Under the pieces are notes generated by a model that had not been told where the DNA came from, ran no database searches, and worked only from the letters and a program-made list of their open reading frames with translations. DNA of 61,520 nucleotides, from NCBI RefSeq assembly GCF_002095395.1, contig NZ_MJEI01000072.1:1-61520 (forward strand), given 5' to 3'. Made by a program: the position numbers and the translations under genes. This document shows positions 12,923-58,476 of this stretch, piece after piece (within the stretch, counting starts at the first letter, position 1; each line of letters begins with the position of its first letter). Source of the stretch: Williamsia sp. 1135. GTDB taxonomy: Bacteria; Actinomycetota; Actinomycetes; Mycobacteriales; Mycobacteriaceae.

Positions 12923-12934
12923 GGACCTTGGTCA
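12923..12934. promoter_or_regulatory. DosR/DevR-like box upstream of the arc operon
   Basis: GGACCTTGGTCA, flanked as GAGGACCTTGGTCACC, is close to the DosR core GGACTTTNGNCC (two mismatches) and strongly resembles the site upstream of the USP gene at 37199. It lies about 110 nt before arcD. Nothing else is recognised in 12815-13093. Confidence 0.5.
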
Positions 12935-13093
12935 CCGGGTTGCGCCGTCGTCGATTTGATGGTCGATGCACGCGCGTCGCATGTGACAGAGGGCCTGTTC
13001 ATTGATGACTTACGGCTGCGGTGCCCGGATCGCGGCCGTGGTGGGGTACTCCATGGAGTATGTGGCGGGGAAGCGAGCCGATGCGGACGTCGG

Positions 13094-13360
13094 TTACGCC
13101 AGCGCCAGAAACAGCTTCTCCAGTTCGGCTTCGGTCAACGGTGCTTGGTCACCGTCGGCACCGTTGATGCACTGCCGCATACCCGAGGCAACGATCTTGA
13201 AGCCGGCGCGGTCAAGCGCACGGGACACGGCGGCGAGTTGGGTGACCACATCCTTACAGTCCCGGCCGGCCTCGATCATGGCGATGACCCCGGCCAGCTG
13301 TCCCTGTGCTCGCCGCAAGCGATTGAGCACCGCGGTCATTGATTCTTCGTCACCGGTCAC
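13094..13360 (-). CDS. CsoR/CstR-family repressor lacking the copper-binding histidine
   Basis: An 88-residue helical DUF156 repressor. CsoR copper sensors use a Cys-His-Cys set; here Cys35 and Cys64 are at the right spacing but the His position (residue 60) is Gly. That pattern fits CstR-like persulfide sensors, which form Cys-Cys polysulfide crosslinks, better than a Cu(I) sensor. It is divergent from the MMPL-DUF2892-DUF302-DsbA genes, with two palindromic operators between, so it presumably represses both directions. The ligand class is inference from the residues. Confidence 0.85.
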
Positions 13361-13397
13361 GGTAGTGGTCCCTTCACTCTTATCGCTTCTTGAAAGG

Positions 13398-13413
13398 GTA
13401 CCCCAGGGGGTAC
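13398..13413. promoter_or_regulatory. CsoR/CstR-type operator, repressor-proximal
   Basis: GTACCCCAGGGGGTAC is a perfect inverted repeat (GTACCCC, AG, GGGGTAC) 38 bp upstream of the repressor start. It matches the G-tract palindromes bound by CsoR-family tetramers. A partial half-site (TGGGGTAT, 13454-13461) lies between it and the second operator. Confidence 0.75.
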
Positions 13414-13476
13414 TCGGGGTCGACGACGAAGCGCACTTGACGGCAATGCCCTATGGGGTATCGTGGGTCGGGTCAA

Positions 13477-13492
13477 GTACCCCCGGGGGTAT
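13477..13492. promoter_or_regulatory. CsoR/CstR-type operator, MMPL-proximal
   Basis: GTACCCCCGGGGGTAT contains the perfect 14-bp palindrome TACCCCCGGGGGTA and sits 31 bp before the MMPL start ATG at 13523, where bound repressor would cover the promoter. Together with the operator at 13398 it forms a pair about 80 bp apart. Confidence 0.75.
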
Positions 13493-13522
13493 ATGGGACC
13501 TCTGCGAGGAGCAGTCAGCATC

Positions 13523-55999: not shown

Positions 56000-56015
56000 T
56001 AGGGCACAAAGTCAC
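56000..56015. promoter_or_regulatory. DosR-like box upstream of the SHOCT gene
   Basis: Minus-strand GTGACTTTGTGCCCTA differs from GGGACTTTNGNCCCTA at two defined positions. It is 111-126 nt upstream of ATG 55889. Confidence 0.5.
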
Positions 56016-56025
56016 ACTGCTGGAA

Positions 56026-56063
56026 ACTGGACGGGTTTGCCCTTGCTGTCGTGAATGCTTACT
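56026..56063. repeat. Diverged repeat, copy 1 (copy 2 at 59780-59818)
   Basis: About 38 nt (starting actggacgggtttg) align with 59780-59818 with six mismatches and one gap. On the minus strand both copies read IHD-x-K and reach a stop soon after, suggesting homologous coding tails. Nothing else is recognised in 56064-56420. Confidence 0.5.
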
Positions 56064-56420
56064 CCTTCGTGGGACTTGCTGACTGTCGCGAATCCCGCTC
56101 TGGGACCTTGATTACCTTGGTCACTCGTTCTGGTGATCTTCGACTGGTCCACGCGTCCCCTGGCGGCGGTTCACTGGAGGTTCGCACACGCGATGAGGCC
56201 CGGATGCCAGCTCTGATGCCGACTGGGTTGGCGTCGCAGGCGGTAGTGCGTCGTGGTGGGTCGCAGGAACAAGTAGATGAAGGACATCGAAAATGAACGA
56301 ACTGACAGTGGCGGTGGGTGCGTCCAGTTTCATGATCGAGCCGGGGATCCGGGGTCGTTCGTCGGCAATTGTCCAGTCTTCGAGAGTGTTCGGTGCGCAG
56401 GCTGTCACGGACGGGCAGCA

Positions 56421-57368
56421 ATGAGTTCGTCCATCGAGGTCCGGAAACTCAGCAAGAGCTACGGCAGCAAGCTGGTCATCGACGACCTGTCGTTCGACGT
56501 CGAAGCTGGAGTCGTGACGGGATTCCTCGGCCCGAATGGCTCAGGCAAGTCGACGACGATGCGGTTGATCGTCGGGCTTGATCACCCAGATCGAGGCAAT
56601 GCCCGCGTGCAGGGAGTGGCCTACGCCGATCTGCGTCAGCCGCTTCGAACAGTGGGTACTCTCCTGGACGCGGAGGCTGTCCATCCAGGAAGGTCGGCCT
56701 TCAACCATCTGCTCTATCTCGCTCAAACACAAATGATTCCGCGCGTCCGCGTGGAGCAGGTGCTCGAGCTGGTCGGACTCACTGCCGCCAAGAGTGAACG
56801 CACCGGGTCGTATTCGCTCGGCATGCGCAAACGACTGGGCATCGGGGCGGCACTGCTCGGCGATCCTCCCGTCCTCATTCTGGACGAACCGGTCAACGGT
56901 CTGGATCCGGACGGCATCTTGTGGATACGCACTCTGATGAAGCACTTGGCGAGCGAGGGTCGCACAGTGTTCGTGTCCAGTCATCTCATGAGCGAAATGG
57001 CAATGACCGCTGATCATCTCATTGTGATCGACAACGGTTCACTCATAGCCGATTGCACCACCAAAGAGCTGATTGCCAGTGGTGGGCAGGCGTCGGTGCT
57101 GGTGCGGTCATCCGATTCGAGAGCACTTGCTGGGTACATCACGGCGGCGGGTGGCAATACCGATTTCGGAGAACACGACGTCCTGACTGTGCGCGGTTTG
57201 TCTGCGCGCCGGGTCGGTGAACTGGCGGACCAGTTCGACATCGTGCTCTACGAACTGACCCCGATGGCGGCTTCGCTCGAGGAGGCATTCATGACGCTCA
57301 CACATCCCTCGTCGATGCCACCGGAGTCGGCGCCCACGTCTTTAGGCCCCGACAAGGTGTTGTCATGA
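56421..57368 (+). CDS. ABC transporter ATP-binding protein
   Basis: A 315-residue ATPase of the drug/bacitracin exporter type: Walker A GPNGSGKSTTMR (about 38), signature YSLGMRKRLGIGAALL, Walker B LILDEPVNGLDPDG and VFVSSHLM. It pairs with the permease that starts at 57365 (ATGA overlap). ATG 56421 is chosen over an in-frame start at 56277, which would add a 48-residue tail unlike the family. Substrate unknown. Confidence 0.87.
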   Translation: MSSSIEVRKLSKSYGSKLVIDDLSFDVEAGVVTGFLGPNGSGKSTTMRLIVGLDHPDRGNARVQGVAYADLRQPLRTVGTLLDAEAVHPGRSAFNHLLYLAQTQMIPRVRVEQVLELVGLTAAKSERTGSYSLGMRKRLGIGAALLGDPPVLILDEPVNGLDPDGILWIRTLMKHLASEGRTVFVSSHLMSEMAMTADHLIVIDNGSLIADCTTKELIASGGQASVLVRSSDSRALAGYITAAGGNTDFGEHDVLTVRGLSARRVGELADQFDIVLYELTPMAASLEEAFMTLTHPSSMPPESAPTSLGPDKVLS

Positions 57369-58204
57369 GTAACTCCCAACCCGTTGCAGCACCGAAAGCG
57401 CTTGTGCTGCGAAGTCCTGGCCCACAGGCCATCGGACTGCTGCGATCGGAGTGGACGAAACTTGTTTCGTTGCGATCGGCTATTTGGTCGCTGACCTCGT
57501 TGGTAGTCGTGACTGTCGGCTTCACCGCGTTGTTCACATGGTTTACCGTGGCCAACTGGGGCAGGGTCGACTCGGCGGCGCAGCTGCAGATCATGGCCGA
57601 CCCCGCTCGCCAGATATTGGGCGCGGGATTCCAATTCGGTCAGTTGGCGGTCTGTGTTCTGGGTGTCTTGATGGTGACCAGTGAATACGCCAGCGGAACG
57701 ATCCGGGCGAGCCTGTTGGCGGTACCGGCACGGGTACCGGTACTGGCCAACAAATGTGCAGTGTTTGCGGCGGTCGTGTTTGTCGTGGGCGAAGTCACGG
57801 CGTTCCTGGCATTTTTCGTGGGAGCGGCCGTGATCCGTCCGCGCGCATCAGTGTCGCTGGCTGACCCGGGTGTGGTGCGTGCGGTGTTGGGTACGGGTTT
57901 GTATCTCGCGTTGCTCGGGGTCATGGCCATCGCGATCGGCGTGCTCGTCCGTCACACCGCGGGAGCCATCACCGGGATCATAGGTTTCGTTCTCGTTCTG
58001 GGACCGTTGGCTCAGTTGCTCCCCGGCACGATCGGGCAGCACATCCACGCGTATCTACCCTCGGAGGCGGGAATACTGATTGCCTCTCCCCAGCAGGCGC
58101 CCACTGATCTACTCTCGCCCTGGCAAGGTTTCGGTGTCGCGTGCTTCTGGACGGCGTTGTTGATCGCCTTGGCCGGGTACACGCTGAAACGGCGCGACGC
58201 GTAG
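57365..58204 (+). CDS. ABC-2 type transporter permease
   Basis: A 279-residue membrane protein with about six TM helices after a soluble N-terminus; GLLRSEWTKLVSLRSAIWSL marks the ABC-2 family start and MVTSEYASGTIRASLLAVP the loop after TM2. It forms the channel partner of the ATPase at 56421-57368, overlapping it by 4 bp. Stop TAG. Confidence 0.85.
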   Translation: MSNSQPVAAPKALVLRSPGPQAIGLLRSEWTKLVSLRSAIWSLTSLVVVTVGFTALFTWFTVANWGRVDSAAQLQIMADPARQILGAGFQFGQLAVCVLGVLMVTSEYASGTIRASLLAVPARVPVLANKCAVFAAVVFVVGEVTAFLAFFVGAAVIRPRASVSLADPGVVRAVLGTGLYLALLGVMAIAIGVLVRHTAGAITGIIGFVLVLGPLAQLLPGTIGQHIHAYLPSEAGILIASPQQAPTDLLSPWQGFGVACFWTALLIALAGYTLKRRDA

Positions 58205-58464
58205 GTGGCGACCTCAGTTCGTTCAGGGGCACAACAGATACTGAGGCGTGTCTGTGCTGAGGACTCGAAATGCTAAAGGGCAACAATTCAGAACGTGAAG
58301 GGAATCATCATGCGTGCAGATCAGGTAGTCCCTCAGTCAATTGATCGGGGTCTCGCCAGGGTGACGGCGGGCCGATGAGGTCGCCGTCAGCTTTGCAGTC
58401 GGGCTCTGGGCATCTGAAGACGTACCAGCGTTTGCGCGACGTGGTGACGTCACTCGAAGGTGCC

Positions 58465-58476
58465 GGCCTATAGTCC
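58465..58476. promoter_or_regulatory. DosR-like box upstream of the SRPBCC gene
   Basis: GGCCTATAGTCC differs from GGACTATAGTCC at one base and keeps the symmetric centre. It is 93-104 nt before GTG 58569. Otherwise nothing is recognised in 58205-58568. Confidence 0.5.

Follow-up and report, generated by a model that had tools for sequence, protein, structure and literature searches.

A candidate DevR-type hypoxia island with a boxed arginine deiminase operon in Williamsia sp. 1135

We have analyzed a 61,520-nucleotide stretch of the Williamsia sp. 1135 genome (contig NZ_MJEI01000072.1, positions 1 to 61,520 of the forward strand; hereafter the window), which carries genes for a DevR-type response regulator and a DevS/DosT-type sensor kinase as well as an arc operon of the arginine deiminase (ADI) pathway. 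The reading we favor, at a probability of roughly 80%, is that the window holds a hypoxia ('dormancy') island of the DevR/OsdR type, and that its arc operon is one DevR-switched unit, of a kind that joined such islands at least twice and is now decaying here. Judging from what is known of DevS and DosT, the predicted heme kinase would sense the loss of oxygen (or nitric oxide) and phosphorylate DevR. DevR dimers would then bind 20-bp palindromic boxes resembling AGGGACYWWNGNCCCT, which lie about 47–165 nt before ten promoter regions, and this binding would switch the units of the island on together. The arcD-arcA-OTC-arcC unit (OTC, ornithine carbamoyltransferase) would yield one ATP per arginine without respiration, and arc genes would have joined a DevR island both in the lineage of the window and in a lineage with the order arcD-CtpF-ADI-OTC-arcC, found in Rhodococcus and others.

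The initial annotation of the window had proposed that sites related to a consensus, GGGACTTTNGNCCC, link about 13 transcription units, and each of the coordinates that it listed does hold sequence related to that motif. The consensus as written does not separate signal from noise. Allowing up to three mismatches it matches the window 56 times, against 56.5 expected from shuffles, and allowing up to two it matches the whole genome 292 times, against 442 for a reversed-pattern control. For this reason a trained matrix was used instead, and it is only with a trained matrix that the motif is real. The first matrix, 20 bp long and palindromic, was built from 231 distinct promoter sites at 79 DevR loci of relatives (L002–L080), among them Rhodococcus and Gordonia, with Williamsia left out. 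Because the arc promoters of Rhodococcus needed a fair test, a stricter matrix was retrained after dropping 12 loci; the 67 that remain, of Nocardia and the mycobacterial genera, supply 212 sites. Both matrices were seeded with the 20-bp M. tuberculosis consensus, and their sites are predicted rather than experimental. In the first matrix the G at position 6 is 100% conserved and the C at position 8 is 95% conserved, in agreement with the caption to the R. equi box, which names G6 and C8 as invariant (PMC2947987).

Predicted palindromic DevR boxes are enriched before the genes of the window. With the stricter matrix and a threshold of at least 10 bits, 11 sites fall in the 16.0 kb of window intergenic DNA. 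As a control, 80 stretches from elsewhere in this genome (1.594 Mb, drawn from eight contigs by convenience rather than at random) have 14 in 174.8 kb of intergenic DNA, so that the window is enriched 8.6-fold (Fisher p 2.1e-6). When the threshold is raised to 13 bits there are six window intergenic sites and three in the controls (22-fold). The coding DNA of the window has one site of at least 10 bits in 45.5 kb, and 200 column-scrambled matrices find 2.0 window sites on average and never more than 6, none reaching 11. The original proposal of box-linked units is borne out in part.

Eight of the 13 sites originally listed (12923, 20532, 26516, 37099, 40377, 42171, 51865 and 56000) score 9.9–15.5 bits with the first matrix, and four good sites were absent from the list: 26474 (13.3 bits), 51778 (13.1), 48532 (11.6) and 26164 (10.2). 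The figure of about 13 box-linked units is accordingly reduced, in that sites of at least 9.9 bits occur at ten promoter regions; these are nine of the listed 13, one of which (26190) qualifies through the neighboring site at 26164, and the unlisted region at 48532. Genes were called by codon bias and not with a standard gene finder, and operon heads and distances depend on those calls.

The arc box lies at 12919..12938, 104 nt upstream of arcD. It scores 15.1 bits (14.9 with the stricter matrix) and is the second-best box of the window; no control intergenic position scores as high. All four arc genes are on the reverse strand: arcD, an arginine/ornithine exchanger-like amino acid permease (11372..12814; Pfam AA_permease_2, 2e-51); arcA, the ADI gene, which is interrupted (10117..11340; Pfam ADI, 1.6e-75 on 10363-11340); the OTC gene (9092..10111, trimmed start; OTCace and OTCace_N on 9092-10303); and arcC, a carbamate kinase-like gene of the amino acid kinase family (8158..9090, trimmed start; Pfam AA_kinase, 5.3e-20 on 8158-9189). 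Genes for ADI, OTC, carbamate kinase and an exchanger thus stand together, as they do in several relatives, in which an arcD-type permease likewise lies beside ADI.

The pairing of a boxed arc operon with devR recurs in four other genomes. In G200 (Rhodococcus sp. AW25M09, the same contig place as DevR locus L005), G062, G132 and G018, the distance between devR and an ADI gene accompanied by OTC and arcC is 4–19 kb. A CtpF-type ATPase adjoins ADI in the first three, with the arcD-type permease beyond it; no arcD match was seen in G018. The box before ADI or the operon head scores 16.3 bits in G200, 15.2 in G062, 14.1 in G132 and 16.4 in G018, where it sits 772 nt before ADI, in front of another gene. 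Together with the window, these five operons with DevR/DevS in the same stretch take ranks 1 to 5 among 61 ADI operons scored (14.1–16.4 bits). The remaining 56 reach 12.8 at most, with a median of 0.1 (Mann-Whitney p 1.2e-4). The scored regions differ in length, for which per-locus resampling allows; the linked operons give p 0.000–0.006 with 500 first-order Markov resamplings each. As for the claim that the regulon includes the arc operon, the box and its recurrence in four other genomes support it, although this strain may have ceased to carry arginine fermentation, given the in-frame TAG of arcA.

A DevR elsewhere in the genome is not enough for a strong arc box: DevR was found at 1e-55 or better in 18 of 21 other genomes queried, and the arc score is below 10 in 15 of these 18. 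Loose proximity is not enough either, as five ordinary ADIs located 38–53 kb from a devR score at most 7.4. Four of these are second ADI copies scored after the 61 (G111:C10 6.6, G182:C1 3.5, G131:C12 7.4 and G058:C1 4.2, the last over a plain 600 nt), and the fifth, G001:C8 (L130), 50 kb from devR, scores 2.6 by operon walk and 6.5 by plain 600 nt. The 61 operons include two places represented twice (L122 and G001; L142 and G191) and a set of near-copies (L123–L126). The 56 unlinked operons comprise 25 scored in stretches of 10–60 kb and 31 scored in loci of about 3.9 kb. L132, a weak partial match, was left unscored; L121, L133–L139 and L181–L183 entered the scoring through the window itself or through longer stretches, and 17 of the 56 other genomes with an ADI match were scored in such longer stretches. 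Two operons from other families, in G427 (L231 8456) and G441 (L230 8731), belong to genomes that both have DevR and may be further cases of the pairing or chance.

The ADI sequences fall into two lineages. In a 59-row tree, from which L122 and L142 were left out and in which the window row was cut at its stop codon, the window ADI groups with those of G107, G242, G343 and G329 (96/91), and the four other island ADIs form a clade of their own (100/100). A single clade for all five linked ADIs, a group fixed before the tree was made, is rejected (approximately unbiased test, p-AU 0.0016). The pairing with the island therefore arose at least twice, or once with later replacement of the ADI, and since it is seen in both lineages, linkage by chance becomes less probable.

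Several reading frames of the window are disrupted, a circumstance that the initial annotation overlooked. In arcA there is an in-frame TAG at 10363-10365 on the reverse strand, ahead of the conserved C-terminal Cys segment, and the remainder continues in the same frame; intact relatives align through to 10117, and the ADI frames of G062, G132, G200 and G018 are 416–449 residues long. The window thus lacks an intact arcA with its C-terminal catalytic Cys in frame. The CtpF-like ATPase gene likewise has an in-frame TAG at 45499-45501 (reverse strand), a position at which Williamsia sp. 1138 keeps an open frame, and the pyruvate phosphate dikinase (PPDK) gene is divided near 27725 between two frames that overlap, corresponding to one open frame of 779 residues in strain 1138.

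Strain 1138 has lost most of the arc operon. A 4.4-kb deletion has removed window positions 8316-12704, leaving the ends of arcC and arcD, and a search of the 1138 genome for arcD gave 11 matches of which the best is only 25% identical (2.4e-14). One core base of its arcD box is changed, lowering the score from 14.9 to 5.5 bits, within flanks that are 94% identical. The arc operon is decaying in both Williamsia assemblies as their sequences stand, the window lesions being given as assembled, where assembly error is possible. At most sites the flanks are 97–99% identical between the two strains, for which reason conservation in 1138 is a poor guide for a large part of the block; the informative parts are the more divergent region near 35–42 kb and the arcD box. 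Window positions 35471-47174 are about 87% identical to 1138 (L228), compared to 98.6% for 17983-27181, and this patchy divergence resembles that left after recombination.

The presence of devR and devS in the window, noted at the outset, is borne out. DevR (40437..41087, reverse strand) has a LuxR-type domain and matches M. tuberculosis DevR (PDB 3c3w) at E 5.6e-99 over residues 1-213, with an identical recognition helix and the phospho-acceptor D54 retained. It is the single close DevR of the genome. Among the 80 loci kept, its best match is the DevR of Williamsia sp. 1138, with 99% identity. The kinase (35351..37090, forward strand) has a GAF-GAF-HisKA_3 architecture by Pfam; it matches PDB 2vzw at 1.5e-59 and DevS 2y8h at 3.5e-55, its GAF domain matching DevS structures. 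It keeps the signature residues of such sensors, namely the His in FPPNHPPM, which we take to be the heme His, and a DLHD motif. Within the genus, DevR was detected at 1e-55 in four of nine genomes (G000, G001, G002 and G007, the last probably the same assembly as Williamsia sp. 1138, G401) and not found in five at that threshold, and the island is thus patchy.

A number of observations weigh against our interpretation. Five of the 13 listed sites (26190, 30974, 35235, 38642 and 58465) score below 8 bits (4.0–7.6). That at 38642, before hsp20 (38638..38657, 4.0 bits), is supported by its counterpart at the same place in Williamsia 1138 (14.2 bits), and that at 30974 looks like a box with spacing one base shorter. 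There is no box directly before devR (3.8 bits); such a box would point to autoregulation, a feature that we do not regard as defining. Instead, devR may be read through from the boxes at 42159-42186, since these precede the universal stress protein (USP) gene just upstream of it. As arcA is broken, it cannot be asserted that DevR controls a functional pathway in this strain, and the change in the 1138 arcD box is a single substitution. Fair boxes also precede arc genes that were not seen near devR, in G427 (12.8 bits) and G441 (12.6), and a further such operon, in G446, has a box of 10.4. For 31 of the 56 unlinked operons, the separation from devR was established only later, from their positions, and linkage may go unseen where contigs break; among these, L130 is 50 kb from devR, G032, G173 and G174 are 105–124 kb away, and all others either lie at greater distances or on different contigs or belong to genomes without DevR at 1e-55. 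The ADIs that group with the window's (G107, G242, G343 and G329) share 62–67% identity with it, but none is near devR and their scores are −2.0 to 3.8; the window ADI forms a long end branch, making its place in the tree less sure. Finally, the five linked operons count as two independent events, not five, as four of them form one clade.

The strongest competing explanation, which we nevertheless consider unlikely, is that the island is a DevR regulon in which the arc operon is a mere passenger, carried in a hot spot of gene exchange, its box being there by chance or belonging to another unit. The arc operon does sit toward one edge of the island, has largely been lost from 1138 and has a nonsense codon in the window, and among six DevR loci mapped over 10 kb on each side (L001–L006) only L005 has arc genes. 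Against it, each of the five linked operons has a box of at least 14.1 bits before arcD, ADI or its operon head, and these five score highest among the 61; the resampling at each locus gives p 0.000–0.006, and a single clade for the five is rejected. Far less probable is a regulon whose boxes are read by some other LuxR/NarL-type regulator. In its favor, a search of the genome with DevR gives 38 matches at E 1e-3 or better, partial ones included; however, the next match after DevR itself is only 41% identical, the matrix was learned at DevR loci, and the window regulator has the recognition helix of M. tuberculosis DevR. Least credible of all is that the boxes are an effect of base composition with no regulon behind them. 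The behavior of the plain consensus, described above, speaks for it; against it, the matrix trained elsewhere is 8.6-fold denser in intergenic DNA of the window than of the controls, scrambled matrices fail, and window coding DNA has a single match of at least 10 bits.

The remaining genes of the island include the typical members of DevR/DosR regulons, with USP, Hsp20, nitroreductase, PPDK and P-type ATPase genes all recognized by Pfam, along with zinc dehydrogenases and two nitroreductase-like genes. The adh unit (18933..20482, reverse strand; ADH_zinc_N and ADH_N) consists of a zinc alcohol dehydrogenase gene and a small upstream open reading frame (ORF); its box at 20529..20548 scores 9.9 bits, and those of its homologues score 13.2 (G062), 10.2 (G132) and 14.7 (G200). 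Such comparison with the four other islands is patchy, many window genes having no relative there. Upstream of adh, 20569..26289 (reverse strand) is probably one operon of USP, DUF4389, flavodoxin-like, ABC-type ATPase and unassigned genes by Pfam, with no Pfam match in 20569-22305 and a moderate box at its start (26164..26183, 10.2 bits). The PPDK or phosphoenolpyruvate synthase-like gene (26589..28927, forward strand; PPDK_N, PEP-utilizers and PEP-utilizers_C over two ORFs) is preceded by two boxes, at 26474..26493 (13.3 bits) and 26512..26531 (12.9 bits).

USP genes assigned by Pfam lie at 34271..35188 (reverse strand), at 37199..38080 (forward strand), and upstream of devR at 41182..42270 (reverse strand, start probably 42069). 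The second of these has the box at 37098..37117, which scores 15.5 bits (16.4 in the Williamsia 1138 counterpart). Two overlapping DevR-like boxes (42159..42186; 11.5 and 11.4 bits) separate the third from a divergent ORF at 42263..43150 (forward strand), named as USP-like in the initial annotation. The Hsp20/alpha-crystallin gene is at 38137..38607 (reverse strand; Pfam HSP20), and a gene at 39714..40310 (reverse strand), termed Rv1733c-like in that same annotation and with no Pfam match, follows a box at 40374..40393 (14.3 bits). The cation P-type ATPase gene at 43702..46602 (reverse strand; Pfam cation ATPase domains over two ORFs) is presumably of the CtpF type.

Farther along, a P-type ATPase with a C-terminal hemerythrin domain (48627..50954, forward strand; E1-E2_ATPase, Hydrolase and Hemerythrin) has a box at 48532..48551 (11.6 bits); this fusion, with a box 75–111 nt upstream, may be an oxygen-responsive pump. 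The SPFH/band-7 gene (51963..52868, forward strand; Band_7) has two boxes (51778-51797 and 51862-51881; 13.1 and 12.3 bits). The gene for a small PLDc_N/SHOCT membrane-type protein (55506..56015, reverse strand, start probably 55889; Pfam PLDc_N, with SHOCT below the cut-off) has a box at 55999..56018 (10.9 bits), which overlaps the start of the longest ORF and lies 109 nt before the trimmed start. An IS3-like transposase pair, recognized from its translation only, occupies the end of the window (60260-61497).

The island has clear counterparts. With the DosR/DevR regulon of M. tuberculosis it shares DevR, a DevS/DosT kinase, an hspX-like gene, USP and nitroreductase genes, a CtpF-type ATPase and the type of box; that regulon is scattered and is not known to have arc as a member. 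M. tuberculosis arcA (Rv1001) reportedly mediates anaerobic arginine metabolism, in work cited as Surken 2008. In Pseudomonas aeruginosa the arcDABC operon is controlled by ANR together with USP genes, and low oxygen induces arginine fermentation, USPs and adh. ANR belongs to the FNR family, and as both regulator and box are unrelated to those considered here, this is an analogy only.

The compactness of the 45-kb block had been presented as a departure from scattered regulons, but it has a precedent in the OsdR block of S. coelicolor, where eight sites are described as controlling 20 of the 22 genes of SCO0198-0219 (PMC5069765). As portrayed in that account, the OsdR/OsdK block resembles the window in combining a devRS-type pair and upstream DevR-like boxes with genes for USP, PPDK, zinc dehydrogenase, nitroreductase and hemerythrin, and differs from it in having nitrate reductase and transport genes; the word 'arginine' does not occur in the main text (PMC5069765). 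A box directly before the regulator gene, for autoregulation, has been reported for osdR. DosR boxes predicted in Rhodococcus equi 103S, of a related genus, are of the same 20-bp type, and the ADI of that strain (REQ11880) is discussed, in the relevant passage, with regard to pH (PMC2947987). M. tuberculosis arcA is up in a potassium-starvation model of dormancy, which the passages concerned do not link to DevR (PMC4221891). Among the portions of the literature retrieved on arc, DosR/DevR, Rhodococcus, hypoxia and Actinobacteria, none was found that ties ADI to DevR control. The island is thus of a known kind, and the arc module is its new part.

DevR-type dormancy has been studied mainly in mycobacteria, and how non-replicating cells without oxygen supply themselves with ATP is a long-standing question. 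We lean toward the view that arginine fermentation is a recurrent DevR-switched source of hypoxic ATP in the family of Williamsia, Rhodococcus and Mycobacterium, recruited at least twice with boxes before the arc genes and lost in some lineages. If so, DevR dormancy in these bacteria would include an oxygen-independent energy pathway in addition to redox and stress functions, and a DevR-controlled ADI operon would offer a simple and testable answer to that question for relatives outside the pathogens. It would also illustrate how a regulon is assembled, by modules that move beside devRS carrying a box.

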